From: Streptomyces sp. Mut1
Lineage (GTDB): Bacteria > Actinomycetota > Actinomycetes > Streptomycetales > Streptomycetaceae
Length of the DNA: 64,000 nucleotides
NCBI RefSeq assembly: GCF_030719295.1
Contig: NZ_CP120997.1
Coordinates: forward strand, 5,405,501 to 5,469,500
Reading direction: 5' to 3'
Part shown: piece after piece, positions 1 through 17,738 of the stretch
Position numbering within the stretch: position 1 is the first letter of the stretch
Layout of the letters: each line of letters begins with the position of its first letter
Position numbers and translations under genes: made by a program
Notes under the pieces: model-generated
Told to the model about the DNA's origin: nothing
The model's database searches: none
The model's input: the letters and a program-made list of their open reading frames with translations, nothing else

Positions 1-1
1 C

Positions 2-1156
2 CCCTTCGGCCAGTTCATCGTGAAGGTGCACGGCCGCTGCAACCTCGCCTGCCGCTACTGCTACCTGTACGAGGGCCCCGACCGGACCTGGCGCGACCGC
101 CCCGCCGCCGCGGCCCCCGCCGTTCTGGACCGCACCGCCGGCCGCATCGCCGAGCACGCGACGGCCCACGGGCTCCGTAGCGTCGCCCTCGTCCTGCACG
201 GCGGTGAACCCCTCCTCGCCGGACCCGGCCGGCTGGCGGCCCTCGCCGACGCGGTGCGCGCGCGGGTGCCGGCGGGATGCGCCGTCCACACCACCGTGCA
301 GACGAACGCCACCCTGCTCACCGACGCCGGGATCACCACCCTCGCCCGGCACGGCATCCGCGTCGGCATCAGCCTCGACGGCGGTCTGGCCGCCCACAAC
401 ACCCTGCGCACCGACCACGCCGGCCGCCCCTCCTGGCCCGCCGCCTCACGCGGTGCCCGGCTCCTGGCCGACCACCACCCCGACGCGTACGCGGGCATCC
501 TCACCGTCGTCGACCCGCGCACGGACCCCCTGGAGATGTACGAGTCGCTGCTCGCCCTGCGCCCCCCGGCCCTGGACCTCCTCCTGCCGCACGGCAACTG
601 GTCCAGCCCGCCGCCCGGACTGCCCGGACTCACGGACACGGCCATGGGCCCGGGATCGGGCCGCGCGACCCCGTACGGCGACTGGCTGTGCGCCGTCTTC
701 GACCACTGGTGGCCTGCCCCGGGGCGGGAGACCCGCATCCGGCTCTTCGAGGAGTGCGTCGCCCTGCTCCTCGGACTGCCCGCCGCCACCGAGTCCCTCG
801 GTCTCGATCCGGTCAACGCGGTCGTGGTCGAGACGGACGGTTCCATCGAGCAGGTCGACTCCCTCAAGTCCGCGTACGACGGCGCGGCCGCCACCGGCCT
901 CGACGTCTTCCGCCACACCTTCGACGACGCCCTGCGCCACCCCGGTGTCGCCGCCCGCCAGGCGGGAGCCGGCGCGCTCGCCGCCGCCTGCCGCGCCTGC
1001 CCGCTGCTGACCGTGTGCGGTGGCGGCCACTACGCGCACCGCTATCGCGCAGACAACGGCTTCGCCAACCCCTCCGTCTACTGCGCCGACCTCGAACGGC
1101 TGGTCCGCCACGTGGCCGCCAGGCTCGCCGAAGCAACCGCTGGAGACCTTCCATGA
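2..1156 (+). CDS. fxsB: FxsB-type radical SAM/SPASM peptide-modifying enzyme (5' partial)
   Basis: Radical S-adenosylmethionine enzyme of the FxSxx-COOH (FxsB) type, expected to modify a short ribosomal peptide ending in F-x-S-x-x. Counting from the first in-window GTG (base 20), the [4Fe-4S]-binding CxxxCxxC is C7, C11, C14. A C-terminal SPASM-like cluster (CRACPLLTVCGGGH, then a further Cys near the end) would hold auxiliary Fe-S clusters. The reading frame is open upstream of base 20 (PFGQFIV precedes KVHGRC, as in family members), so the true start lies outside the window and GTG 20 is probably internal. Its TGA overlaps the ATG of the HExxH gene (ATGA). Many relatives carry the HExxH domain as a C-terminal fusion; here the two parts are separate genes. 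The substrate peptide gene is expected upstream and is not visible. Confidence 0.88.
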   Translation, partial: PFGQFIVKVHGRCNLACRYCYLYEGPDRTWRDRPAAAAPAVLDRTAGRIAEHATAHGLRSVALVLHGGEPLLAGPGRLAALADAVRARVPAGCAVHTTVQTNATLLTDAGITTLARHGIRVGISLDGGLAAHNTLRTDHAGRPSWPAASRGARLLADHHPDAYAGILTVVDPRTDPLEMYESLLALRPPALDLLLPHGNWSSPPPGLPGLTDTAMGPGSGRATPYGDWLCAVFDHWWPAPGRETRIRLFEECVALLLGLPAATESLGLDPVNAVVVETDGSIEQVDSLKSAYDGAAATGLDVFRHTFDDALRHPGVAARQAGAGALAAACRACPLLTVCGGGHYAHRYRADNGFANPSVYCADLERLVRHVAARLAEATAGDLP

Positions 1157-2541
1157 GCACCGCCATCCCCGACCACGTCCTGCGCGAACTCGGCCGCACC
1201 GAGGGCGACGCCGCGTCCCTCGGCCTGCTCGTCCGCGACCAGGACACCCGCCGCCTCCTCCTTCTGAGGGCGGTGCTCGACGCGGCGTCGGCCGCGCCGG
1301 CGACCGTGTGCCCACCCCCACTGCTGGACCGGCTGCGCGAGGACTGGGCCCTGCTCGAAGCCGCCGAACGCACCGACCGGGCCGCGGCGCGCACCGTCCT
1401 GTTCCACCCCCTGGCCGGCCCCTGGGCGCAGCGCCTGCTGGGCGGCCTCACCGCCCCGGCCGCGGGCCCGGACCTCCTCGCGGACCTGGCCCACCTGACC
1501 GCACTCGCGGCCGCGGCGGCGATCCGGGCGGGGGTGGATTTCACCGTCTGCCTCGGCCCCAGGGACGGGCTGCTGTCGCTGCCCACGCTGGGAGCCGCCC
1601 GGGTGGACGCGGGCCCGGTCGAACTGCACTGCTCGGGAGGCGAGCTGACGGTACGGCCTGCTGACGTGCCGCCCCTGACCGTACGCATTCAGTCGGACGG
1701 CACCACGGGATCAGCGGACCCACGGTGGCTGCCCATGCTTATGCTGCCTGCGGTACTGCCGGGATCCGGTGCCATCCCGCTCGACGACCTCGACCCGTAC
1801 CGCACCCTTGGCAGCGGACTCGAAGAACACGGACTGAGCGGTGCGGACCCGATCGACGACTGGGAGCGCAAGGCCTGGATCGAGTCCTGGTCAGGGATCG
1901 AGCCGCTGCTGCGCATCGGCGGAGAACACCGGCTTGCCGAGGCGGCCGTCCTGCTGCGCTGCATGGTCCCCCTCGGGCCACCGCCCGGCTCCGGGCCCAC
2001 GGGTCGGAGTGCGGCGCATTGCAGCGGCACCCGGCGCGAGGCATTCGGCGCGATCCTCAGCAGCAAGCCCGCCACTGCGGCCTACTTCACGTCGACGCTC
2101 GTACATGAACTCCAGCACACCAAGCTCGCAGCGCTCTGCGCCCTCGTCCCCCTGCACCACGAGGACGCGACGCCCCGGCATTTCGCTCCTTGGCGTCCCG
2201 ATCCCAGGCCCTTCGACGGGCTCTTGCAAGGTGCCTACTCGCATCTGGCGCTCGCCGACTACTGGCAGCGGTTCGCACTGAACGCCCAGCGCGTCACCCA
2301 CCGGGATCTGGCCTGGGCCGAACACGCGCGGTGCAGGCAGCAGGTCGGGGCAGTGCTGCCGGTACTGGCGGGGTCGGCCTCCCTGACCGTCGAGGGACGT
2401 GTACTCGTCAACGAAATGATCACGCTCTACCACCGTCTGGAGGATTCGCCGCCACCCACGGGTCACCTGGCGCGTGCGGAGGCGTACGTGGCCACCGCCA
2501 AGGTGATATGGCAGCAGAGGAACGGATCATCCAGGAGTTGA
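1153..2541 (+). CDS. HExxH-motif peptide modification protein (FxsB partner)
   Basis: 462-residue protein starting at ATG 1153 inside the stop of the radical SAM gene, so the two are probably translationally coupled. The core is H318-E-L-Q-H322, followed by a second conserved segment around GAYSHLALADYWQRF. This HExxH domain occurs beside or fused to FxsB-type radical SAM enzymes. From memory of recent work on fused forms, such domains can act as iron/alpha-ketoglutarate-dependent beta-hydroxylases rather than peptidases; that role is inferred here, not shown. The frame opens far upstream in the preceding gene, but that is a G+C-rich overlap artefact, and ATG 1153 matches the family start. 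An 81-base gap with a TATCTT-like box follows before the next gene. Confidence 0.85.
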   Translation: MSTAIPDHVLRELGRTEGDAASLGLLVRDQDTRRLLLLRAVLDAASAAPATVCPPPLLDRLREDWALLEAAERTDRAAARTVLFHPLAGPWAQRLLGGLTAPAAGPDLLADLAHLTALAAAAAIRAGVDFTVCLGPRDGLLSLPTLGAARVDAGPVELHCSGGELTVRPADVPPLTVRIQSDGTTGSADPRWLPMLMLPAVLPGSGAIPLDDLDPYRTLGSGLEEHGLSGADPIDDWERKAWIESWSGIEPLLRIGGEHRLAEAAVLLRCMVPLGPPPGSGPTGRSAAHCSGTRREAFGAILSSKPATAAYFTSTLVHELQHTKLAALCALVPLHHEDATPRHFAPWRPDPRPFDGLLQGAYSHLALADYWQRFALNAQRVTHRDLAWAEHARCRQQVGAVLPVLAGSASLTVEGRVLVNEMITLYHRLEDSPPPTGHLARAEAYVATAKVIWQQRNGSSRS

Positions 2542-2622
2542 GCAGCCGCGCGATCATGGCCGGGATTCGCAGGCCCCGGTGTATCTTGAAAAGGCTCACA
2601 ACGAGGTCAGGGAGACGGTTGA

Positions 2623-5616
2623 ATGCCCGTAACGCGTAGGCAAGTTGGAGCAACCGGGGCGCAGACCGTCACCCTCAGTTTCGCCGGATTCAACCGGGCC
2701 TGGGCGGCGTGGATCACGGACCGGCTGGAGCGGCACGGGGTGACCGTCGTCCAGCAGCGCTGGGACCCCCCGGTGGAGTTGCCGTTGGAGGACGCGCTCC
2801 GCGACCTCACGCTCTCGCGCGGGCGGATTCTGGTCCTGCTCAGCGACTGGTACTTCCAGCTCGGCCCCCGCAGCCACGAGGAGTGGAACAGAGCCCTGCG
2901 CGAAGTGGTCGTGCCCGATCCCGACCGCTTCGCCGCGGTAACAATCACCACCTCGGCGCTGCCCGGTGCCACCTCCGCGTTCGGTGCGGCGGACCTGACG
3001 AACGTCGGTGCGGACGAGGCGGAACGCCGTCTGCTCGTACACCTGGGACTTCCCGCCGATCCGCTTCCCGAGGACGCCGCCGCGCCGCCCGGCCCCCGCT
3101 ACCCCGCCGACACACCCGAAGTCTGGGGAGGGGTACCGCGCCGCAACACCCGGTTCACCGGCCGCGAGGCACTGCTCACCGACACGTACCAGGCCCTGCA
3201 GGAGGCGGGGACCGGGGCGGGCGTGGTGACGCTGCACGGCATGTCGGGTGTAGGCAAGACCCAACTGGCCGCCGAATACGTCTACCGCTTCGGCTCCGAC
3301 TACGACGTGGTCTGGTGGGTGCCCGCGGACCGGCGCGCGCTCTACCGGCAGAAGCTGGCCGAACTCGCCCCCGAACTGGGACTCGCCACCGGCGCCGAGT
3401 ACGGCGAACGGCTGCGTGCCGTCCGCGACTCGCTGCGCCGCGGCGACCCGCACGCCCACTGGCTGCTGGTCCTGGACGGCGCCGACGAGCCCGACCAGAT
3501 CTGGGACCTGGTGCCCACCGGCCCGGGGCACGTGCTGATCACTTCCCGCAACCCGGAGTGGAGCGAGCACAACAGCAACCTCGTAGAGGTGCCCGTATAC
3601 CGGCGCGACGAGTCCGTCGCCTTCATCCGCCGTCGTGCCCCCAGGCTGACCCGGACGGAGGCCGACCAGCTGGCCGACGCGCTGGAGGACCTCCCGCTGC
3701 TGCTCGATCAGACAGCCGGGTGGCTGAACGACTCCGACATGTCGGTCGAGGAATACATCGAACTTCTCAGTGGCGGCATCGACCAGGACGTGGTCAAGGT
3801 CTCCGCGGACTTCCCTCTCGCCTTCCAGACCGCCTGGTCGATACTGCTGAACAAACTCAGGGACACCGTCCCCGAGTCCGTCGACCTGCTGCGCCTGTGC
3901 AGTTTCTTCGCACCCGGTTCCATTCCCGTGCGGCTGTTGAAGGAAATGCCGTCGGGGGAGTTGCCCGAGCAGCTCTCGGGTCTGATGAACGACCCGCTGC
4001 TGTGGAACAAGGCGATCGGCCAGTTGCGCCAGTACTCCGTGGTCCGCCTGGAATCCCACGAGTCAGTCGTGGACGAGGCGTCCTCCGGGGAGTCGCTCTA
4101 CCTGCACCGCATGGTCCACCAGATCGTCCGCAAGGACATGCCGGATCACGACCGGCAGGAATTCATCGATGTCGTCCGCCGCGCCCTCGCCGCCGCCGAC
4201 CCGGGCCGGCCCACGGACACCAGGCTCTGGCCCCGCTACGCGGAGATCACACCGCATCTGAAGTGGGCCGACGTGCTGCGCAGCACAGACACCGCTGTGC
4301 AGACCCTGGTACTCAACTGCCTCCGCTACATGTACCTCTCCGGGGAGTACCGGGCCGGCATCAAGCTGGGCGCGCGTGCCATGACCGCCTGGCGGGAACT
4401 GCTGGGCGAGAACCACGCGCGCGTCTTCGACCTCAGCTACAACTACGCCAACCTGCTGCGGGCCGTGGGCGACTACGCCGGAACCGAGGCGATCGAAAGG
4501 GCAGCCGTCAATCACCTGAGGACCGAGCGCGGCCCCCAGGATCTCGAACACCTCCGGGCGGCCGGTGGCCTCGCCGCGGACCTGCGCGGCCTCGGCCGTT
4601 ACGAAGAAGCGCAGGAGCTGTCGAGCTGGATCCTGACGTCGTACCGGGAACTGCTGGGCGAGCAGGACTCCCGCACGCTCAGCGCGCAGAACAACCTCGG
4701 CACGTCCATGCGCCTCCTCGGGCGCTATGAGGAGGCCTTGGAACTCAACCGGCGCACTCTGGAGGCACGCCGCCAGCTGTTGCGGCCCCGCCACGGGTGG
4801 ACCCTGTACTCCGAGGTGAACTACGCGACCGACCTGCGCCTCCTCGGCAGGTACCACGAAGCCCAGTCCGTCCAGGCCCAGAGCGCCCGTGTGCACCGGA
4901 TCGTGATGGGCCAGGACAACCCCCAGACCCTGCGCGCCGAGCACAACCTGGCACTCTGCCAGTATCGGGCGGGGGAGCGGAACAAGGCCGCTGTGCTGTT
5001 CACTCGCGTACTGGAGCGCGGTGAGCGCGTGCTTGGCGAGAATGACCCGCTGACCATGATGTTCGCCGCCAGCCAGAGCTTCTTCGCCCGCGAGCACGCC
5101 GACATCGACCAGGCCAGGGCCATAAGCGAGAAGGTGGTGGGCGGCTATGTGGACATGCTGGGTGAGGAACATCCGTACGTGGCCGGCAGCCGCGCCAACC
5201 ACGCCCTGATCCTGCGCAATGTAGGGGAACGCCAACAGGCGCACCACCTGCTGGAAGAGGCCCTCATCGACATGGGCCGTTCGGTGGGGGAGAGCCATCC
5301 CTGGACCCTGGGCTGCGCCATCAACGCTTCGGCCGTACGCAACCTGGTCGGCGACGTGGAGTCCGCCGTCAATCTGACGGACTCAGTCGTCACACGCGCC
5401 ACCGAGGTCCTGGGACGCACCCACCCGCTGACTCTCTCCGCCCGCATCGCCCATGCTGCGGACCTGAGGGGGATTCGGGACAGGCAGCGAGCGGAGAAGG
5501 TTGAGACGGAGGCACTGGACGATCTGGTGGCGACGCTCGGCGCGCAGCACGCGCACACCGTGTCGGCGCGGTCCAGGAACCGTCCGTACTGGGACTTCGA
5601 GCCGCAGATGATCTGA
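2623..5616 (+). CDS. FxSxx-COOH system TIR-like/NB-ARC/TPR protein (copy 1)
   Basis: 997-residue STAND-type protein. Residues about 10-140 form a TIR-like domain (SFAGFNRAWAAWITDRLE, ILVLLSDWYF, SHEEW). The NB-ARC NTPase has its P-loop near residue 205 (HGMSGVGKT), a Walker B-like LVLDGADEP near 285 and an LITSRNPEW sensor segment. From about residue 560 there are repeated TPR units of the NNLGTSMRLLGRYEEALEL kind. Family knowledge: such proteins accompany FxsB loci and are annotated as FxSxx-COOH system TPR proteins, and STAND proteins usually oligomerise when the repeat sensor detects a ligand. ATG 2623 is preceded by GGGAGA. It is clearly a paralogue of the gene at 10260 (shared SHEEWNRALREVVVPDPDRF and VVWWVPADRR), but lacks that protein's first ~155 residues. 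Confidence 0.88.
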   Translation: MPVTRRQVGATGAQTVTLSFAGFNRAWAAWITDRLERHGVTVVQQRWDPPVELPLEDALRDLTLSRGRILVLLSDWYFQLGPRSHEEWNRALREVVVPDPDRFAAVTITTSALPGATSAFGAADLTNVGADEAERRLLVHLGLPADPLPEDAAAPPGPRYPADTPEVWGGVPRRNTRFTGREALLTDTYQALQEAGTGAGVVTLHGMSGVGKTQLAAEYVYRFGSDYDVVWWVPADRRALYRQKLAELAPELGLATGAEYGERLRAVRDSLRRGDPHAHWLLVLDGADEPDQIWDLVPTGPGHVLITSRNPEWSEHNSNLVEVPVYRRDESVAFIRRRAPRLTRTEADQLADALEDLPLLLDQTAGWLNDSDMSVEEYIELLSGGIDQDVVKVSADFPLAFQTAWSILLNKLRDTVPESVDLLRLCSFFAPGSIPVRLLKEMPSGELPEQLSGLMNDPLLWNKAIGQLRQYSVVRLESHESVVDEASSGESLYLHRMVHQIVRKDMPDHDRQEFIDVVRRALAAADPGRPTDTRLWPRYAEITPHLKWADVLRSTDTAVQTLVLNCLRYMYLSGEYRAGIKLGARAMTAWRELLGENHARVFDLSYNYANLLRAVGDYAGTEAIERAAVNHLRTERGPQDLEHLRAAGGLAADLRGLGRYEEAQELSSWILTSYRELLGEQDSRTLSAQNNLGTSMRLLGRYEEALELNRRTLEARRQLLRPRHGWTLYSEVNYATDLRLLGRYHEAQSVQAQSARVHRIVMGQDNPQTLRAEHNLALCQYRAGERNKAAVLFTRVLERGERVLGENDPLTMMFAASQSFFAREHADIDQARAISEKVVGGYVDMLGEEHPYVAGSRANHALILRNVGERQQAHHLLEEALIDMGRSVGESHPWTLGCAINASAVRNLVGDVESAVNLTDSVVTRATEVLGRTHPLTLSARIAHAADLRGIRDRQRAEKVETEALDDLVATLGAQHAHTVSARSRNRPYWDFEPQMI

Positions 5617-5688
5617 GGCCATGGTGCTGGTGACGGCTAGTCAGTAACCTTGCGGCAAAGGCTACTTGAGCGCTCATGGGGGGCAACG

Positions 5689-6102
5689 ATGGCTGTCGTT
5701 GTGGGTTCACCGGCACCCGGCGAGGACGGTCCCATACCGGTCGTGGTGGACGTCGAGGCGTTCACCGCCACCGGGGCACCCGTCACCGACGCGGACTCGC
5801 TGTACGGGAGCGAGGAGACGCGGGACGGTGCGGGGGCCGCCCGCCGTGCGCTCGGGGCGGCGGGTGATCTGTATGGGGACGGCCTCGACCTCGCCCGCCG
5901 CTGCGCCTCCCAGGCCATGCGCAGGCTGGGCGACCTCGGGGACGGGCTGCGGCCCGACGAGGTCGAGCTCCAGGTCGGCATCACCTTCGAGGCGGGGATG
6001 GCCGCCGTGGTCAAGGCCGGTGCGGAGGCGCAGATCCAGGTCACCTTCCGCTGGCAGCCGGGGCGCGAGGAGCAGGCGGTCGCGGTGGTGGCGCCCTCGT
6101 GA
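5689..6102 (+). CDS. Trypco1 / CU044_2847-like small protein
   Basis: 137-residue protein starting at ATG 5689 after a G-rich Shine-Dalgarno stretch; the gap from the previous gene is 72 bases. The compact beta-alpha-beta pattern ends in EVELQVGITFEAGMAAVVKAGAEA and QIQVTFRW. This resembles the trypsin-co-occurring domain family (Trypco1/CU044_2847), found beside NTPases, proteases and STAND proteins in actinobacterial conflict-type loci. No catalytic residues are evident, so an adaptor or recognition role is inferred. The stop codon overlaps the GTG start of the AAA gene (GTGA), implying coupled translation. Family assignment is by recall of the pattern, so moderately sure. Confidence 0.7.
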   Translation: MAVVVGSPAPGEDGPIPVVVDVEAFTATGAPVTDADSLYGSEETRDGAGAARRALGAAGDLYGDGLDLARRCASQAMRRLGDLGDGLRPDEVELQVGITFEAGMAAVVKAGAEAQIQVTFRWQPGREEQAVAVVAPS

Positions 6103-7046
6103 GGGACACGGCGCGGGAGGCGTCGCCGGCGCCGATCCTCCCGTACAGCCGTATCGTCGGGCAGGACGAGCTGAAGCTGGCCCTGGAGCTGAACTTCATC
6201 GCCCCGGCCATCGGCGGCGTGCTCATCGCGGGGCAGCGCGGCACGGCCAAGTCCACCGTGGTGCGGGCCTTCGCGCTGATGACCGGCGGGTGCATGCCCG
6301 TGACCCTGCCGATCAACGCGACCGACGACCGGGTGCTCGGCGGCTGGGAGCTGGACGCGCTGATGCACGGGGAGGCCCGAAGGCAACGCGGGCTGCTCGA
6401 AGAGGCGCACGACAAGGGGCTGTTGTACGTCGACGAGGTCAACCTCCTCGACGACCACATCGTCAACATCATCCTCGACGTGGTGTCCACCGGCGTCCTC
6501 TCCGTCCAGCGGGAGGGAATCGACACCGAGACCCATGTCTCGTTCGGGCTCGTCGGCACGATGAACCCCGAGGAAGGCAGTCTGCGGGCCCAGCTCCTGG
6601 ACCGGTTCGGGCTGATGGTGACGGCCGCGGAGCTGGACATCGAGGAGCGGCACCGGATGATCACCACCGTGCTCGCCTTCGAGGAGGAGCGCCTGCGCGC
6701 GGACTCCGGCTGGCTACGGGCCGCCGAGGAGGACAACCGGCGCCTGCGCGACGGCCTGCTCGCCGCGCGCGCCCGGCTGACAGCGGTACGGCTGGAGGCG
6801 GACATCAGCCGGCTCTGCGCCGAAGCGGCTGCCCGGACAGGTGCCGTCGGGCAGCGTGGTGATCTGCTGGTGGCCAAGGCCGCCCGTGCCCTCGCCGCAC
6901 GGGAGGACACGGAGCGGGTGAATGCCCGCCATGTGCGCCGGGTCCTGCCGCTCGCCCTGCGCCACCGCAGGCCCGAGTCCGTGCACGGTCAGGAGCCGGC
7001 CTGGGGGCAGGACGAGGAAGCCGCAATCGACGAGCTCTTCGGCTGA
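6099..7046 (+). CDS. MoxR/BchI-like AAA+ ATPase
   Basis: 315-residue AAA+ ATPase of the magnesium-chelatase subunit I/MoxR clade. Walker A is G45-QRGTAKS-52, Walker B is Y110-VDEVN-115, and the segment VGTMNPEEGSLRAQLLDRFGL gives sensor 1 and the arginine-finger region. The C-terminal helical lid (HVRRVLPLALRHRR) is present. No cobaltochelatase or chlorophyll genes are nearby. The partner is the adjacent VWA protein, as in MoxR-VWA chaperone pairs, so a role in remodelling or activating a protein complex is likely. GTG 6099 overlaps the previous stop by four bases, and the VWA gene starts six bases after the stop. Confidence 0.88.
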   Translation: MRDTAREASPAPILPYSRIVGQDELKLALELNFIAPAIGGVLIAGQRGTAKSTVVRAFALMTGGCMPVTLPINATDDRVLGGWELDALMHGEARRQRGLLEEAHDKGLLYVDEVNLLDDHIVNIILDVVSTGVLSVQREGIDTETHVSFGLVGTMNPEEGSLRAQLLDRFGLMVTAAELDIEERHRMITTVLAFEEERLRADSGWLRAAEEDNRRLRDGLLAARARLTAVRLEADISRLCAEAAARTGAVGQRGDLLVAKAARALAAREDTERVNARHVRRVLPLALRHRRPESVHGQEPAWGQDEEAAIDELFG

Positions 7047-7052
7047 CGCGCG

Positions 7053-8993
7053 ATGCCCGAACGGCCGACACCGAACCAGGACCCGGGGGAGCCGGACGAC
7101 CTCCCCGGCCGGTTGCTGACCGCGCTCGTCTGCTCCGCCCTGGAGCCGTCCCTCACGGGCGTGCTCCTGTTCGATCTCCCGCCCGAATACCTCTCCCCCG
7201 TCGCTGGGGTGTTCGCGGACATGCTCGGCCGGTCCTGCGGAAACCCCTCGGGCCGTACCGTGCCCCGGACCTTCCTGGACTCCGCCACGCTCGACGAGGA
7301 CCTGTGGATACGGCCCCGGGTCCATCGGGGCCCCGCGGGCATCGAGTTCACCCTCGGGCCCGGCCCGCTGGCCGAGACGGGGAACGGCCCCCGGCTGGTC
7401 GTCGTGCCCGACCTGGCCCGGTTGAGCGTCCCGGGCATGCGCGCCGCCGTACGACTGCTCGGCGCGGACACCGTCGCGCACACGGACCACCGGCACGACG
7501 GCCGGCCCCGCACACGATGGCTGGCGTGCTGCCGCGCCGAGGACACCGAACTGGTCTCACCCCACCTGCTGGACCGCTTCTCCGTGCGCCTCGCCGCCCC
7601 GGGGCTGCGGCCACACCCCGGCCCGGACCCGCTCGGCGCACTCCCCGCAGACTGGGCGCGGGCCCTCGACCCCGAGACTCCCCGGCCCTGCCTCACGCTC
7701 ACGGACGAGGCCGCGTCGACCGTGCTGGAACACCTGGACGAGCGGGAGAGCGGAGGTCACCGCCGCGAACTCGCCCTCGCCCGCATCGCCCGGGGCCTGG
7801 CCCGGCTGGACGAGGCAGGGCCCACCGCGGCCGAGAGGCGCCCGTCCGACGGCGGACCGCGCCCGGTCACGGCCGGCCATGTGGACCGGGCGGCACGGCT
7901 GATCCGCCTCCGCGCCGTCCACCGCCCCGGAACGCCGCCGCAACCGCCCCCGGAGCACGAGCTGCCCGGACCTCCCCGGCCCGGCAGCCGACCCCACAGT
8001 CCCGAGCCGCCGCGGAGTCGGGACCGGGACGCGGAAGCGGGCACCCCGGTGCACGGCCCGGACTCCGCCGTGCCGCTCGGCCTCGCACCGGCCGCCGGGG
8101 AAGTGCCGCACGCGGATGTCCCGTACCCGGAGGACAGGGCGGGCCCGGGGCCGGGGGAGGCCACACTGCGGACACCCGCCCGCCGCACCACGGGTGGGCG
8201 CGCCTCCCGCGGACCGGTCGTCGGGGTGCGGCGCGCCCGCGACCTGTGGGACCTGGCTCCGGTCCGCACCGCGATGGAAGCCGCCAAGTACCGGGCGGTA
8301 CGCGGCGATGCCGGCGATTCGCTGGTGATCGCCCCGCCCGATCTGCGCGGCTACGTACGGGCGCCGGAACCGGTGCGGACCCTGACCCTGGTGCTCGACC
8401 ACACGTGCCGCGGCGACTGGGACTGGTACGCGACGCTCGAACCGTTCCTGCACTGGGCCTACGTCACCCGGGCCTCCGTCCAGATCGTGGAGGTCGGGGG
8501 CGAGGGGGAGCCGAACGAACTCCGCTCCCGCTCGTTCACCGCCCGGTCCACCCGCGACCCCAGGATCGCCGCCGCGCTGGCCCGGCGGCCAGGACGAGCC
8601 ACCCCGCTCGCGCACGGACTCGACCTGGCGGGACAGGCCCTGCGGCGCGCGTTCCGGCACCACAGCGCCGGACTGATCGAAGCGCTGCTGGTCGTCGTCA
8701 CCGACGGCCGCGGCAATGTGCCGCTCACCGCGAGCCGCAGCGGACGGCCGGGGCCGGGCCCGGTCCAACGGGCCGGCGTCGACGACGCGGTGGCGGTGGC
8801 CGGCCACATCCGCGCCCTGGGCCGCAGCCGGCTGCGCAGCGTGGTCGTCGACCCGGGCCGGCACCCGTACAGCCGCCTTGCGACCGCCCTGGCCGAGGCA
8901 CTCGGCGGCGGTGTCGTCGGACGGCGGGAGGCCGGGGACGCCACCGGCCCGCAGGACCCCGAGGCCGTGGCCCCGGAGGCGCGTCATGGCTGA
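7053..8993 (+). CDS. BchD-like protein: degenerate AAA region plus VWA-type domain
   Basis: 646 residues. Residues 1-300 resemble an AAA domain without a P-loop (LLFDLPPEYLSPVAGVFADML, VVVPDLARLSVPGMRAAVRLL, LLDRFSVRL and a lid-like helical region), as in the D subunits of Mg-chelatases. Residues about 300-430 are a Pro/Arg-rich linker. Residues about 440-600 are a von Willebrand A-like fold with LTLVLDHTCRGDWDW, a later Thr (RATPLAHGLDLA) and VVVTDGRGN. The usual metal-site DxSxS is DHTCR here, so metal binding may be altered. Expected to pair with the ATPase just upstream. Its stop overlaps the CHAT gene start by eight bases. Confidence 0.8.
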   Translation: MPERPTPNQDPGEPDDLPGRLLTALVCSALEPSLTGVLLFDLPPEYLSPVAGVFADMLGRSCGNPSGRTVPRTFLDSATLDEDLWIRPRVHRGPAGIEFTLGPGPLAETGNGPRLVVVPDLARLSVPGMRAAVRLLGADTVAHTDHRHDGRPRTRWLACCRAEDTELVSPHLLDRFSVRLAAPGLRPHPGPDPLGALPADWARALDPETPRPCLTLTDEAASTVLEHLDERESGGHRRELALARIARGLARLDEAGPTAAERRPSDGGPRPVTAGHVDRAARLIRLRAVHRPGTPPQPPPEHELPGPPRPGSRPHSPEPPRSRDRDAEAGTPVHGPDSAVPLGLAPAAGEVPHADVPYPEDRAGPGPGEATLRTPARRTTGGRASRGPVVGVRRARDLWDLAPVRTAMEAAKYRAVRGDAGDSLVIAPPDLRGYVRAPEPVRTLTLVLDHTCRGDWDWYATLEPFLHWAYVTRASVQIVEVGGEGEPNELRSRSFTARSTRDPRIAAALARRPGRATPLAHGLDLAGQALRRAFRHHSAGLIEALLVVVTDGRGNVPLTASRSGRPGPGPVQRAGVDDAVAVAGHIRALGRSRLRSVVVDPGRHPYSRLATALAEALGGGVVGRREAGDATGPQDPEAVAPEARHG

Positions 8994-10263
8994 GGGCAGG
9001 GTCCGCCCGATCCGCGGCCCGGCCGCATCGGCCGCGCAGGCCCCGCCCGTCCGGCGGACGCCGGCACCGGAAGGGGCACGGACGGCGCAGCCGCGCGGTC
9101 TGGGCGCCGCGCCCGTCGACGCCGCGCGGGCACCCGACACGACGTACGCCCGCATCCGCGTCGCGCGCCACCACACGGGAGCGGGTGCGGCGGAGGCCTT
9201 CGGAGTCGAGGCGTGGTGCGACGGGGTGGACCACTTCCCGTACACCACGGGAAGCGGTCAACTACGGCCCCGGGACATCGGTCTCGGCCACGCACGCCGG
9301 AGCGGCACGCCGCCCTCCGAACTCTTCCGGTCCATTCGGCGCTGGTCGAAGTACCAGCACCAGCTCACCAGTTGGATCAACCGGTGCCGGCTCGCCCACG
9401 GCGACGGGCTGCAGATCGTCGTCCTCGACCAGACGGGCTTCGACCTGCCGTGGGAAGCACTCGACCTGCCCGCCGTACCGGAGGCCGGGCTGCGCGGCGG
9501 CCCCTTGGGCGCGCTCGTGGACGTGGCGCGCTGGCTGGACGACTTCCCCGACAGGGCGGTCGCGCCCAACGGCGCGGTGCTGGGCTTCTTCCACCCCGAC
9601 ATGAGCCGTGACCAGGAGTTCTTCGAACAGTACGAACACCGGACGCACTTCGGCATCGAGAGCTTCCTGAACAACCTCGACGACGTCACCGAACAGCGGA
9701 CCGGCCTCGTCTACATGGGTTGCCACGGCACCTTCGACCACGAGCTCAGCAAGCTCACCCTGGCCGGCGGGACCTGGGCGGACTACGACGATCTCGACAT
9801 GCGCCTGCTGAGCCGGGACGACACGCTGGTCTGCCTGAACGCGTGCCACTCCGGGCGGTTCCTCGACTACGGCGGGGACGGCAGGCAGTATCTGCGTGGC
9901 TTCACACAGATATTCCTGCGCAACGGCGCCGGCGGCTGCATCGTCTCGGCCGGCGAGGTCGGTGACTCCGAGGCCCGGGTGATGATCCGCCGGATCGTCG
10001 ACACCGTGACCGAGGACCCCGACCGGCCGGTGGCCGGCGCGCTGCGGGCGATTCGCGCCGGGGTCCACGACACGTTCCTGATCGGCGGCGGCGTACCGAT
10101 GATGGTCAGGGACGACGGCACCTTCGACACGCGGCGGCAGCGGAACGTGCTGCGGCTGCTGTACAGCCTGATGTTCCAGTACTACGGACACCCGCTCAGT
10201 ACGCTGCGCCTCACCGGACGCCACCAGGGCACCCCGGCTCCGAGGGAAGGGGGCGGGCTGTGA
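8986..10263 (+). CDS. CHAT-domain caspase-like protease
   Basis: 425 residues. ATG 8986 lies inside the end of the VWA gene; an in-frame upstream extension exists but is probably not used. The C-terminal half is a CHAT (caspase HetF associated with TPRs) domain with a visible dyad: H247 in GLVYMGCHGTF and C287 in CLNACHSGRF, followed by the family segment GAGGCIVSAGEVGDSEA. CHAT proteases are typical effectors of NTPase-gated bacterial signalling or defence loci. The N-terminal ~150 residues begin with a low-complexity stretch and then an unassigned domain (TYARIRVARHHTGAGAAEAF). The stop TGA overlaps the GTG of the next STAND gene. Substrate unknown. Confidence 0.88.
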   Translation: MAEGRVRPIRGPAASAAQAPPVRRTPAPEGARTAQPRGLGAAPVDAARAPDTTYARIRVARHHTGAGAAEAFGVEAWCDGVDHFPYTTGSGQLRPRDIGLGHARRSGTPPSELFRSIRRWSKYQHQLTSWINRCRLAHGDGLQIVVLDQTGFDLPWEALDLPAVPEAGLRGGPLGALVDVARWLDDFPDRAVAPNGAVLGFFHPDMSRDQEFFEQYEHRTHFGIESFLNNLDDVTEQRTGLVYMGCHGTFDHELSKLTLAGGTWADYDDLDMRLLSRDDTLVCLNACHSGRFLDYGGDGRQYLRGFTQIFLRNGAGGCIVSAGEVGDSEARVMIRRIVDTVTEDPDRPVAGALRAIRAGVHDTFLIGGGVPMMVRDDGTFDTRRQRNVLRLLYSLMFQYYGHPLSTLRLTGRHQGTPAPREGGGL

Positions 10264-13200
10264 CCCGCGACGAGCGTCCCCTGCTGATCGAACCCGTCGT
10301 GGGCTGGCTGCCCGAGGTGCGACCCGGCCTCGTCCAGTGCGTCAGCGTCGACCTGCGCGGCCCGCTCGACGGCCGGGGCCGGACGGACACCGACGCCTGG
10401 CCGTACGACGACGAGGAGGAACTGGCGTTCAGTGTCGCCCTGGAGGGGGCGCCGTACTTCGTCTGCGAGGCACTCGACGACCCCGGTGTCGTCCTGCACC
10501 GCTTCGGCGGTACGTACGGCCCGGCGACGTTCCTCGTCACCGCGGGGCCCTCCAGCGGGCCCGGCGTGCTGCGGCTGACCGTCTTCAACCAGTGGGGCGC
10601 GTCGGTGCGCAAGGAAGAACTGGCCTGCCTCATCACGGAGTCGGCGCACTCCGGCGGGGCGAGGCCCGGCACCCTCGTCCGCGGGCCGGAGACGTCCCCC
10701 GCGCACCCCGGACCGGTCGCGGCCGACGGCCCCGACGCGAGCGTCACCATCAGCTCCGCCGGGTACAACTGGGCCTGGGCGGAATGGATCGGCTACCGGC
10801 TGGAGCTGCGCGGAGTGCGGGTGTTCCGCCGGAGCTGGTCCCCACCGCCCGAACTGCCGCTGGAGGAGGCCCTGCGGGACCTCGCTCGCGCCCCCGGCCG
10901 CGTCCTGCTCCTGCTCAGCGACCCCTACGTCCAGCCGGAACTCCGCAGCCACGAGGAGTGGAACCGGGCCCTGCGCGAGGTCGTCGTACCCGACCCCGAC
11001 CGGTTCGCGGCGGTGCGCCTCACGGAGTCGGCGCTGCCCGGCGCCGCCTCGGCGCTGAATGCGGCGGACCTCGTCCGCGTACCCGCCGACGAGGCGGAGC
11101 GACGGCTGCTGGTGCTCCTGAGGCTGCCCACGCGGCCACTGCCTGAGGAACTGGCCGCACTGCCCGGCCCGCGCTTCCCCGCGGACCCGCCCGCCGTATG
11201 GGGCGGGGTGCCTCGCCGCAACCCGCGCTTCACCGGCCGCGAAGAACTGCTGCCGGCCATGCACGAGACGCTCCACATGGCCGAGCCGGGGCGGCGCCGA
11301 GTGGTCCTGCACGGCATGCCCGGCATCGGCAAGACACAGCTGGCGGCGGAGTACGTCTACCGTTTCGGCTCCGAGTACGACGTCGTGTGGTGGGTGCCGG
11401 CCGACCGGCGCTCGGGCTACCGGCAGAAGCTCGCCGAACTCGCCCCGGTGCTGGGCCTGTCCACCGGCGTCGAGTACGGCGAGCGGCTGCGTGCCGTACG
11501 CGAGGCGCTGGGCTGGGGCGAGCCGTACGCCCGGTGGCTGCTGATCCTGGACGGGGCGGACGAACCCGAACAGCTGCGGGACCTGGTACCCCTCGGACCC
11601 GGGCACGTCCTGATCACCTCCCGCAACCCGGAGTGGGGGGAGTACGACGTCCGGGCCCTCGACGTACCTGCCTACACGCACCAGGAGTCGGTCGCCTTCG
11701 TCCGCCGCCGGGCCCCGCGCCTCACACCCACCGAAGCCGCCCGGCTGGCCGGGGCGCTGGAGGACCTCCCGCTGCTGCTCGACCAGACGGCGGGCTGGCT
11801 GAACGAATCGGTCATGTCCGTCGAGGAGTACATCGGGCTGCTCGGCCACGGCGCCGACCAGGACGTCGTCAAGGTGTCGGCCGACTTCCCGCTCACCTTC
11901 CGGACCGCCTGGGCGATCCTGCTGAACAGGCTCCAGGCCGCCGCCCCGGAAGCCGTCGACCTGCTGCGTCTGTGCGGCTTCTTCGCGCCGGGCTCCGTTT
12001 CCGTACGGCTGCTCAAGGCGGTTTCGCCGGACGGACTGCCCGAGCGGCTCGCGGGCGTGATCCGCGATCCGGCGCTGTGGAGCACGACGATCCGCCGGTT
12101 GCGCGAATACTCCGTGATCCGCGTGGAGCCGCACGGGGCCGAGGGCAGTGAGTCCGTCCACCTGCACCGCCTGGTCCACCGGATCATCCGCAAGGACGTG
12201 CCGGAGCACGACCGACTGGCTCTCGCCACCGGAGCCCGCCGCGCGCTGGCCGCCGTCGATCCGGGCGATCCCTCGGACATCCGTCACTGGCCGGCGTACG
12301 CCGCCCTCACCACCCACCTCGAATGGGCCGGGGTCCTGGACAGCACGGACCCCGAGGTGCACCGACTGGTCCTCAACTGCCTCCGCTACATGTACCTCTC
12401 CGGGGAGTACGGCAGCGGCATTCGGTTCGCCGCGCCCGCGATGGAGTCCTGGGAGAGGCTGCTCGGCGCCGCCGATCCCCGGATCTGGGACCTGCGTCAC
12501 CACTACGCCAATCTGCTGCGGGCCCTCGGCGACTACCGGAGCAGCGAGAGGGTCGAGCGCGCCACCGCCGACTTCCTGGCCACCGAGCGCGGCGAACTGG
12601 ACCTGGACCACCTGCGGGCCGCCGGCGGGCTGGCCGCCGATCTGCGCGGCCTCGGCCGCTACCAGGAGGCCCTGGAGCTCTCCGCGTCGATCCTGGAACG
12701 CGATCGAAGGCTGCTCGGACCCGAGGACCCCCGCACCCTCAACGCGGAGAACAACCTCGCCGTCTCACTGCGGCTGCTCGGCCGGTACGCACAAGCGCTG
12801 GAACAGGACGAACGCACGCTGGAACTGCGCCGGGCCGTGCTGTCCGCGGACGCGCCACCGGCCCTGTACTCGGAGATCAACCTCGCCACGGACCTCAGGC
12901 TCCTGGGCCGGCACCGCGAAGCGGGGCACGCCCTGCGGGAAACGGTCGAGCACCATCTGCGGGTGATGGGCGACAACAACCCGCAGACGCTGCGCGGGCA
13001 GTACCAGCTGGCGCTGTGCCGGTACGCACTGGAGTGGGCCGGGACCGCGCTCATGGACCTCGTCGGGGTCAGAGAGGACGCGCTGCGGATGCTGGGAGAG
13101 CACGCCCCCCTCACCCTTCTGATCACCGCTGGGGTCGCGGGCGCGCAGAGGGAGGCGGGCGACCCCGGCCCGGCGCTGCGGCTCCACGAACAGGTCGTGG

Positions 13201-13574
13201 CCGGCTATCGGGGCATGCTGGGTGCCGAGCACCCGTACACCATCGGCGCCGAGGGGAACCTGGGGCTGATGCTTTGGACGGCGGGGGACCGGGGCCGGGG
13301 AGCCGAGGAGGTCGAACTGGCCCGCGTCGCAATGGCGGAGGCGGTCGGGGAGGACCATCCCTGGACCATCGGGTGCGCGCTGAACACGGTCCTGGTTCGG
13401 GCCCGGACCGAAGGGCTGCCGGACGTGCCGCTGCTGGGGCGGGAGAACAGCGCGCGGGCCGATGCCGTGCTGGGGCCCCGCCACCCGCTGGCAGCGGCCT
13501 GCCGGCAGGCGCTCACGGCGGCGTCGGCGGATACCGGGCCCGGGTTCTGGTCCTTCGAGCCGCTCGTCATCTGA
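10260..13574 (+). CDS. TIR-like/NB-ARC/TPR protein with extra N-terminal domain (copy 2)
   Basis: 1104 residues, GTG start overlapping the CHAT stop. Residues 1-150 are a beta-rich domain absent from copy 1 (LLIEPVVGWLPEVRPGLVQC, EELAFSVALEGAPYFVCEAL), followed by a short linker. Then come a TIR-like domain (about 158-300, SHEEWNRALREVV), NB-ARC (P-loop HGMPGIGKT near residue 353, LILDGADEPEQ, LITSRNPEW) and TPR units to the end. The strong resemblance to the gene at 2623, down to shared LNCLRYMYLSGEYGSG-type segments, shows duplication within the locus. It is the last gene of the unit; a perfect inverted repeat follows three bases after the stop. Confidence 0.88.
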   Translation: MTRDERPLLIEPVVGWLPEVRPGLVQCVSVDLRGPLDGRGRTDTDAWPYDDEEELAFSVALEGAPYFVCEALDDPGVVLHRFGGTYGPATFLVTAGPSSGPGVLRLTVFNQWGASVRKEELACLITESAHSGGARPGTLVRGPETSPAHPGPVAADGPDASVTISSAGYNWAWAEWIGYRLELRGVRVFRRSWSPPPELPLEEALRDLARAPGRVLLLLSDPYVQPELRSHEEWNRALREVVVPDPDRFAAVRLTESALPGAASALNAADLVRVPADEAERRLLVLLRLPTRPLPEELAALPGPRFPADPPAVWGGVPRRNPRFTGREELLPAMHETLHMAEPGRRRVVLHGMPGIGKTQLAAEYVYRFGSEYDVVWWVPADRRSGYRQKLAELAPVLGLSTGVEYGERLRAVREALGWGEPYARWLLILDGADEPEQLRDLVPLGPGHVLITSRNPEWGEYDVRALDVPAYTHQESVAFVRRRAPRLTPTEAARLAGALEDLPLLLDQTAGWLNESVMSVEEYIGLLGHGADQDVVKVSADFPLTFRTAWAILLNRLQAAAPEAVDLLRLCGFFAPGSVSVRLLKAVSPDGLPERLAGVIRDPALWSTTIRRLREYSVIRVEPHGAEGSESVHLHRLVHRIIRKDVPEHDRLALATGARRALAAVDPGDPSDIRHWPAYAALTTHLEWAGVLDSTDPEVHRLVLNCLRYMYLSGEYGSGIRFAAPAMESWERLLGAADPRIWDLRHHYANLLRALGDYRSSERVERATADFLATERGELDLDHLRAAGGLAADLRGLGRYQEALELSASILERDRRLLGPEDPRTLNAENNLAVSLRLLGRYAQALEQDERTLELRRAVLSADAPPALYSEINLATDLRLLGRHREAGHALRETVEHHLRVMGDNNPQTLRGQYQLALCRYALEWAGTALMDLVGVREDALRMLGEHAPLTLLITAGVAGAQREAGDPGPALRLHEQVVAGYRGMLGAEHPYTIGAEGNLGLMLWTAGDRGRGAEEVELARVAMAEAVGEDHPWTIGCALNTVLVRARTEGLPDVPLLGRENSARADAVLGPRHPLAAACRQALTAASADTGPGFWSFEPLVI

Positions 13575-13576
13575 GA

Positions 13577-13635
13577 CACACACCGAAGGGGCCTGCCCCG
13601 CGAGAGAATCGCGGGGCAGGCCCCTTCGGTGTGTG
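13577..13635. terminator. Perfect 27-bp stem between convergent genes
   Basis: Left arm 13577-13603 and right arm 13609-13635 are exact reverse complements around the five-base loop GAGAA. It sits between two convergent genes: the + strand TIR/NB-ARC/TPR gene ends at 13574 and sucA on the - strand ends at 13645. The long G+C-rich stem without an obligate U-tract fits a bidirectional streptomycete terminator. Confidence 0.9.
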
Positions 13636-13644
13636 CGCTGCCGG

Positions 13645-17481
<3,837 letters not shown>

Positions 17482-17738
17482 GGCGGCAACCGCCCTCTTC
17501 CGCTTCACAAGGTGATGGACAGCGGGAATCAAGGCTACGCCTCCCCGGCCGTTCCCTGCAGGCCGGGCCGGTCTTCGTCGTGCAAGTCACATCGAAAGTC
17601 GGGTTTCGGCGCAGGAAATGGCGGGAAACAAGCATGGTTCCGCTTCACTCCGGGTACGCGAGGCCGCAACTACGGCCCCTTGGACCGTACCCCCTGAACA
17701 GAACACGCAGAACGTGCCCTTCCGGTTCGAACCCTACG

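Follow-up and report, generated by a model that had tools for sequence, protein, structure and literature searches.

The eight plus-strand genes at positions 2-13574 of the Streptomyces sp. Mut1 DNA analysed here (the window, 64 kb of an 8.0-Mb genome, G000:C1:5405501-5469500) belong, in our reading, to a VMAP-MoxR-vWA system of the FxSxx-peptide type that carries an accessory second tier and has a predicted role in conflict. We put the probability of this reading, including a peptide-switched release of CHAT protease and STAND effectors that would lead to dormancy or death, at about 45%. The base system is known. The second tier, a cassette of Trypco1, ChlI, ChlD, CHAT and a second STAND gene, is, as far as our searches go, an undescribed add-on and, elsewhere, a stand-alone conflict-type module. 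In particular, its presence co-varies with a single residue of the peptide. The eight genes, with the head domain of the last, are as follows.

2-1156, plus strand: FxsB, cyclophane-forming radical SAM/SPASM maturase (TIGR04269, 427 bits, cut-off 370; C...C..C cluster motif)
1153-2541, plus strand: separate alpha-ketoglutarate (aKG)-HExxH-type peptide beta-hydroxylase (TIGR04267, 163 bits, cut-off 40; HELQH motif)
2623-5616, plus strand: TN1, with TIR-like, NB-ARC (STAND) and TPR parts (NF040586, 870 bits, cut-off 300; matches to TIR_2, NB-ARC and TPR_12; P-loop GMSGVGKT)
5689-6102, plus strand: Trypco1, which opens the accessory cassette, ATG at 5689 (PF19493, 52 bits, cut-off 24.6)
6099-7046, plus strand: ChlI/BchI-type AAA+ ATPase of the chelatase clade of MoxR (TIGR02442, PF07728, PF20030; intact Walker motifs)
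7053-8993, plus strand: ChlD-like protein with degenerate AAA, Pro-rich linker and vWA (weak matches only, to TIGR02031 and TIGR02442)
8986-10263, plus strand: CHAT cysteine protease (PF12770, 41.7 bits, cut-off 24; His247/Cys287 dyad)
10260-13574, plus strand: TN2, with head domain, TIR-like, NB-ARC and TPR parts (NF040586, 758 bits, cut-off 300, from residue 317; TIR_2 at residues 162-283)
10260-10643, plus strand: head domain of TN2, an Ig-like beta-sandwich without a Pfam match

An earlier reading of these letters (the original prediction) had proposed eight same-strand genes of these families, and each of its family calls holds, the ChlD-like vWA being called by weak matches only. Its count of tight junctions was likewise correct: five of the seven are close (FxsB/HExxH -4, Trypco1/ChlI -4, ChlI/ChlD +6, ChlD/CHAT -8 and CHAT/TN2 -4 bases), and the other two measure 81 bases (HExxH/TN1) and 72 bases (TN1/Trypco1). 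Position 2 itself is a mere window edge. Namely, the longest FxsB frame begins 119 bases before base 1 (G000:C1:5405382), and in the 12 kb upstream, which we examined in stretch L009 and annotated from 4.2 kb onwards, four further genes precede FxsB on the same strand.

L009 4275-6341, same strand as FxsB: VMAP protein, 688 amino acids (PF20028, VMAP-C, 1.4e-32; Trypsin_2, 9.9e-15)
L009 6472-7500, same strand as FxsB: MoxR ATPase with N-terminal motifs WLIYRG and PPWRDF
L009 7508-11293, same strand as FxsB: protein in the vWA place, 1261 amino acids (NF041121, SAV_2336 N-terminal domain, 473 bits)
238 bases ahead of the longest FxsB frame, same strand: FxsA precursor, 63 amino acids, ending EMLWGFTNAF (TIGR04268, 46.2 bits, cut-off 28)

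The last of these is the FxSxx peptide gene that the original prediction had proposed to seek upstream. Its tail, FTNAF, has Asn instead of Ser, and the precursor passes the family profile though the literal Phe-x-Ser-x-x is absent. The VMAP protein, which is the one VMAP-C match in the genome at 1e-5, combines an N-terminal peptidase with VMAP-C in one polypeptide and shows the TCAH, DLAL and GMSG motifs; the vWA of the 1261-residue protein is assigned from place and family, its single TPR_12 match (17.5 bits) lying below the cut-off of 30.1. The genes stand in the order VMAP, MoxR, vWA, and the upstream MoxR has both N-terminal motifs, WxhapG and PsWRxa, by which the main text of Kaur et al. 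2020 (PMC7159879) defines the MoxR of VMAP systems.

That text describes VMAP-MoxR-vWA systems with an FxSxx peptide, a radical-SAM/SPASM enzyme, an HExxH protein and a separate TIR-AP-ATPase-TPR protein, and all four of these companions are present here (TIGR04268, TIGR04269, TIGR04267 and NF040586, respectively), as are the trypsin-type VMAP protein at the head of the order and Trypco1. In other words, the link between peptide enzymes and a MoxR-vWA-STAND module, which the original prediction had put forward as new, was published in 2020, and NCBI families (FxSxx_TPR) carry the same link. In the same text the peptide is proposed to be a toxin or a signal, the conflict or immunity role being a prediction there too. 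In contrast to the system described there, the present locus also has ChlI, ChlD, CHAT and TN2, the second STAND protein, which bears an Ig-like head, and its peptide is of the Phe-x-Asn form. What is more, its HExxH protein falls in a family that PMC7159879 assumed to be peptidases and that now, according to the searched text of PMC12636437, which cites a Nat. Chem. 2024 paper, comprises aKG-dependent hydroxylases of cyclophane peptides. As FxsA, FxsB and HExxH are bona fide families of ribosomally synthesized and post-translationally modified peptide pathways, one could also regard the locus as an ordinary cluster whose product is a bioactive peptide that is secreted, the STAND genes and the protease gene then serving in regulation or leader removal. 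We would be surprised if this were so: no transporter family is matched among the 12 annotated proteins (genes farther out lie outside the annotation), and MoxR, vWA and TIR-STAND genes recur beside this peptide type.

Turning to the cassette proteins, the MoxR/BchI AAA protein of the original prediction proved to be of the BchI/ChlI type and not a MoxR of the VMAP systems, as ChlI, unlike the upstream MoxR, lacks both N-terminal motifs. Its nearest families are those of BchI and cobaltochelatase, at scores far under their cut-offs (TIGR02442, 274 of 779 bits; a second family, 220 of 467 bits). It does exceed the cut-off for bpMoxR (PF20030, 37.2 bits against 27), a feature shared with the MoxR-vWA-beta-propeller ternary systems, but no beta-propeller family is matched among the 12 scanned proteins. 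In ChlD, the AAA half is related to BchI, a profile of relatives matching the structure 1g8p (5.9e-8), and the vWA half has TDGRGNVPL and a DHT, invariant in 18 relatives, at the place where the metal ion-dependent adhesion site of vWA domains usually starts; the usual start is DxSxS. The pair thus resembles Mg-/Co-chelatase ChlI-ChlD (BchI-BchD) in joining an active AAA subunit to an inactive-AAA/vWA partner, but the operon has no large chelatase subunit and has CHAT and STAND partners instead. From this likeness, and from known MoxR-vWA pairs that, in the literature text searched, insert metals, one might suppose that ChlI-ChlD is a metal- or cofactor-insertion chaperone (compare chelatase and CoxD-CoxE) maturing FxsB or the iron enzyme HExxH, with CHAT and STAND as passengers. 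This is very unlikely, since 35 loci with an LWGF-type precursor have FxsB and HExxH genes (the HExxH gene of L099 with an in-frame stop) and no ChlI match in the fetched stretch, since ChlI-ChlD-CHAT exists without a FxsB or HExxH match, and since ChlD accompanies CHAT in 36 of the 37 CHAT-family loci, the remaining one, L023, being a contig that begins inside CHAT. An in-frame stop within the HExxH match is reported for both L099 and L190 (G389 and G898), which are cassette-free, and the hydroxylase may be dispensable there.

CHAT has 425 amino acids and a Csx29/separase-like double-domain fold (residues 1-51 at low confidence), and in its dyad Cys287 is invariant and His247 conserved to at least 90% across 28 sequences. 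It differs from the TPR-CHAT protein Csx29 of Craspase and from separase in having no TPR match in the family scan, in its identity of only some 11-14%, and in its AAA/vWA operon partners. Neither the CHAT profile nor the TIR-like part of TN1 has a sequence match among solved structures. The Ig-like head of TN2 is elsewhere joined to different effectors, that is, effectors have been exchanged; the effector in L167 is kinase-like by eye only, and the five L167 proteins scanned, CHAT and ChlD among them, have no Pfam matches. No description of a ChlI-ChlD-CHAT module was found in the searched literature, a provisional result, as supplements and most subscription journals lay outside the search. 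In particular, the main text of PMC7159879 has no word beginning with "CHAT" and general chelatase remarks only, and the searched text of PMC8195603 and PMC10907252 has nothing on such modules.

The cassette behaves as a unit. Gene order is the same from FxsB through the second STAND gene in 24 of 37 CHAT-family loci, with a variant order in 2 more, and recurrence across so many genomes rules out chance or artefact as the origin of the gene set. FxsB is linked to the cassette in all 26 Streptomyces/Actinacidiphila CHAT loci whose upstream side is visible (7 more begin inside the cassette). That said, the linkage is one-sided, and the unlinked loci that would have counted against the original prediction do in part exist: only 5 of the 80 fetched FxsB regions have the cassette, so that most Fxs loci lack it, and ChlI-ChlD-CHAT without an Fxs match occurs in 4 Actinomadura/Nonomuraea loci and in 1 locus of another family. 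Near such stand-alone cassettes VMAP-C appears only as gene 5, in 2 of 4 scanned loci, and the cassette by itself has neither the MoxR N-terminal motifs nor the VMAP-MoxR-vWA order of VMAP ternary systems. FxsB is present in 79 of 121 Streptomyces genomes. ChlD is found in 3 of 61 relatives and, across the class, in 3 of 394 genomes including this one, and the head domain, across the phylum, in this genome alone out of 296. A viral origin was considered and set aside: among viral contigs, 72 matches to ChlD patterns came down to 1 weak partial relative, a short ChlD-like match in the uncultivated viral contig L163 (42% over 48 residues).

The residue whose occurrence goes with that of the cassette is the Asn of the Phe-x-Asn (FxN) tail. 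Of the 80 FxsB regions, fetched from the copies in the 121 Streptomyces genomes, 13 come from the fused group and 67 from the group with lower scores, which is mostly unfused. To these were added 36 regions surrounding HExxH relatives that score 281 bits or more, without those shortened by contig ends, and 1 further region. Excluding L128 (a 3-kb contig) and eight duplicate records, the set with LWGF-type precursors, which is enriched for cassette loci, numbers 68. All 33 cassette-bearing loci in it end in Phe-x-Asn and none in another form, while among the cassette-free ones 13 have Phe-x-Asn and 22 do not (Ser 13, Glu 4, Ala 3, Arg 1, Gln 1). Four tails were left unread (L190, L205, L208 and L210); L208 and L171 are one record, and its tail was read under the latter name. 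Five further cassette genomes with peptide genes on other assembly stretches (L017, L021, L023, L027 and L041) also end FxN, so that Asn is present in 38 of 38 LWGF-type loci that have the cassette and whose tails were read, 33 of them in the FxsB tree and 5 outside it. When Asn loss on this tree is allowed to depend on the cassette, the model beats independence with a likelihood ratio statistic of 26.8, which none of 120 null simulations reaches (maximum 7.55); the rate of loss is 7.8 without the cassette and at the lower bound with it. For the original prediction's idea of a functional link between the peptide and the protease/STAND module, this co-variation provides indirect support, all of it from sequence.

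In most examined Streptomyces loci of this type, the Fxs conflict locus adjoins a kgd-like gene, which makes this a fixed chromosomal hotspot. In the window, two features mark it.

13577-13635, no strand: perfect 27-bp inverted repeat, probable terminator common to the operon and the kgd-like gene
13645-17532, minus strand: putative kgd/sucA-like gene (named from its sequence), the fixed flank of the hotspot, outside the system

Of ten inverted repeats in 1-13700, the hairpin directly 3' of TN2 is the only long perfect one. The kgd-like gene follows TN2 by 71-153 bases in 30 of 31 cassette-bearing loci (2,493 in L019), and in 31 cassette-free Fxs loci it lies 69-3,501 bases past the last STAND gene, or past a filler. 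It is missing from 56 of 118 stretches, mostly FxsB loci without MoxR, truncated stretches and stand-alone cassettes, and also L095, L096 and L144; in a later set of 37 stretches it was found in 36 by script and in L184 on re-inspection. aKG is used by the HExxH class and consumed by kgd; the pairing is nevertheless probably coincidence, since the site also houses Fxs loci with no HExxH match. In L101, L107, L110, L113, L114, L125, L127 and L139 other genes fill the TN1-kgd slot; named by eye, they are an extra STAND-type protein, a helix-turn-helix protein, an IMP-dehydrogenase-like reading frame and a hydrolase-like one. L097 has a lone Trypco1-like gene, and L101 and L193 a second STAND protein, in L101 without the head domain.

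Three cassette-free loci hold remnants of the cassette: L135 has the last 264 codons of TN2 at 88% DNA identity to L036, L217 has the final codons of TN2, part of ChlI and a 36-bp stretch of Trypco1 (97%), and L184 has 68 bp at 79%, kept with the proper gap. These remnants show that cassette loss is real in some lineages. With the proper gap L102 gave no match, and, given 20 matches in 700 shuffled gaps and 1 in 35 reversed gaps at the same cut-off, those of L111, L215 and L216 (1.6e-6 to 6e-5) are ambiguous. Recombination between TN1 and TN2 is ruled out as the route of loss, as the cassette-free TN is nearer the sister TN1 in 8 of 8 comparison windows (15 readable pairs, 12 cassette-free loci, the L123 row left out). 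Cassette-free TN1 and sister TN2 reach 93% identity in the STAND core but often no more than 35-65% over the TPRs at the C-terminus, a pattern that would suit homogenisation of the core alongside diversification of the sensor part.

Could the hotspot simply house two independent immune-type systems beside the kgd-like gene, without functional contact, the Asn pattern being shared ancestry? The cassette stands alone in other families, other genes too occupy the TN1-kgd slot, and an independent-pairs test, stricter than the likelihood test, gives no significant result (among 8 pairs on well-supported branches, an average of 2.6 go the same way, 0 the opposite way and 5.4 show no difference, in a set with one duplicate and hence 34 cassette-bearing loci). 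We nevertheless find such independence doubtful, for the STAND part of TN2 groups repeatedly with TN1, the two larger gaps before 13577 have no terminator-like hairpin (such scans can miss), and the tree likelihood favours dependence.

The two-tier reading has its own difficulties, to which the stand-alone cassettes and the independent-pairs result belong. The likelihood test uses one tree, with some rate estimates at bounds; the 72-base gap ahead of Trypco1 makes an own promoter possible; and PADLOC gives weak partial matches for 9 of the 12 scanned proteins and nothing stronger. What is more, of the genomes behind the 13 cassette-free FxN loci, the 5 checked have no ChlD match anywhere, which rules out a cassette elsewhere in those genomes and means that FxN is not sufficient; the sole ChlD match in that check is weak and partial (7.8e-11), in the FxS genome G031. 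Finally, L039, L042 and L134 have the cassette with YxD-like tails (by eye) and no FxN, and thus the cassette does not need the FxN tail in every lineage. These acidic peptides, without a HExxH match beside them, represent a second kind of peptide partner; two FxsB matches are seen in L039 and L042.

How the two tiers might work together can be sketched as follows; that there is a ring, that CHAT is released, what the peptide does and how the response ends are inferences. The first tier (VMAP trypsin, MoxR and vWA protein) would keep the system off until switched by an invasion cue. FxsB would cross-link the FxsA tail into a cyclophane, probably at Phe-x-Asn, the HExxH enzyme may hydroxylate it, and the finished peptide would serve as an internal signal or ligand. 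In the second tier, ChlI and ChlD would form a BchID-like ATPase ring holding the protease CHAT and TN2, the STAND protein with the head domain, with Trypco1 as a small adaptor. The Asn-form peptide, or the output of the first tier, would then engage ChlD, CHAT or STAND, and ATP-driven remodelling or STAND assembly would free CHAT, a dormant protease of the Csx29/separase type, to cut a target, while TIR-STAND assembly would render the infected hypha dormant or dead. A narrower version, which we think quite unlikely, sees in the cassette a further kind of conflict module of the MoxR-vWA sort, with ChlI-ChlD of chelatase type and a CHAT resembling Csx29 at its base, and the FxsA Phe-x-Asn tail as substrate or ligand of CHAT itself. 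CHAT belongs to the caspase/legumain/separase fold class, whose enzymes discriminate between residues preceding the cut, and direct reading of Phe-x-Asn by CHAT would account for Asn being kept in 38 of 38 loci and varying after cassette loss, as in the scarred L184, whose tail is FQS.

No FxSxx system has a demonstrated role in the searched literature, and the co-variation of the cassette with a single residue offers a first way into the purpose of the peptide. Loci that otherwise match but have or lack the cassette form a natural on/off series, and CHAT is a candidate dormant protease with Craspase and separase as relatives. Through the residue that tracks the cassette, in its Asn and Ser forms, it becomes testable whether the peptide acts as a signal, a substrate or a toxin.

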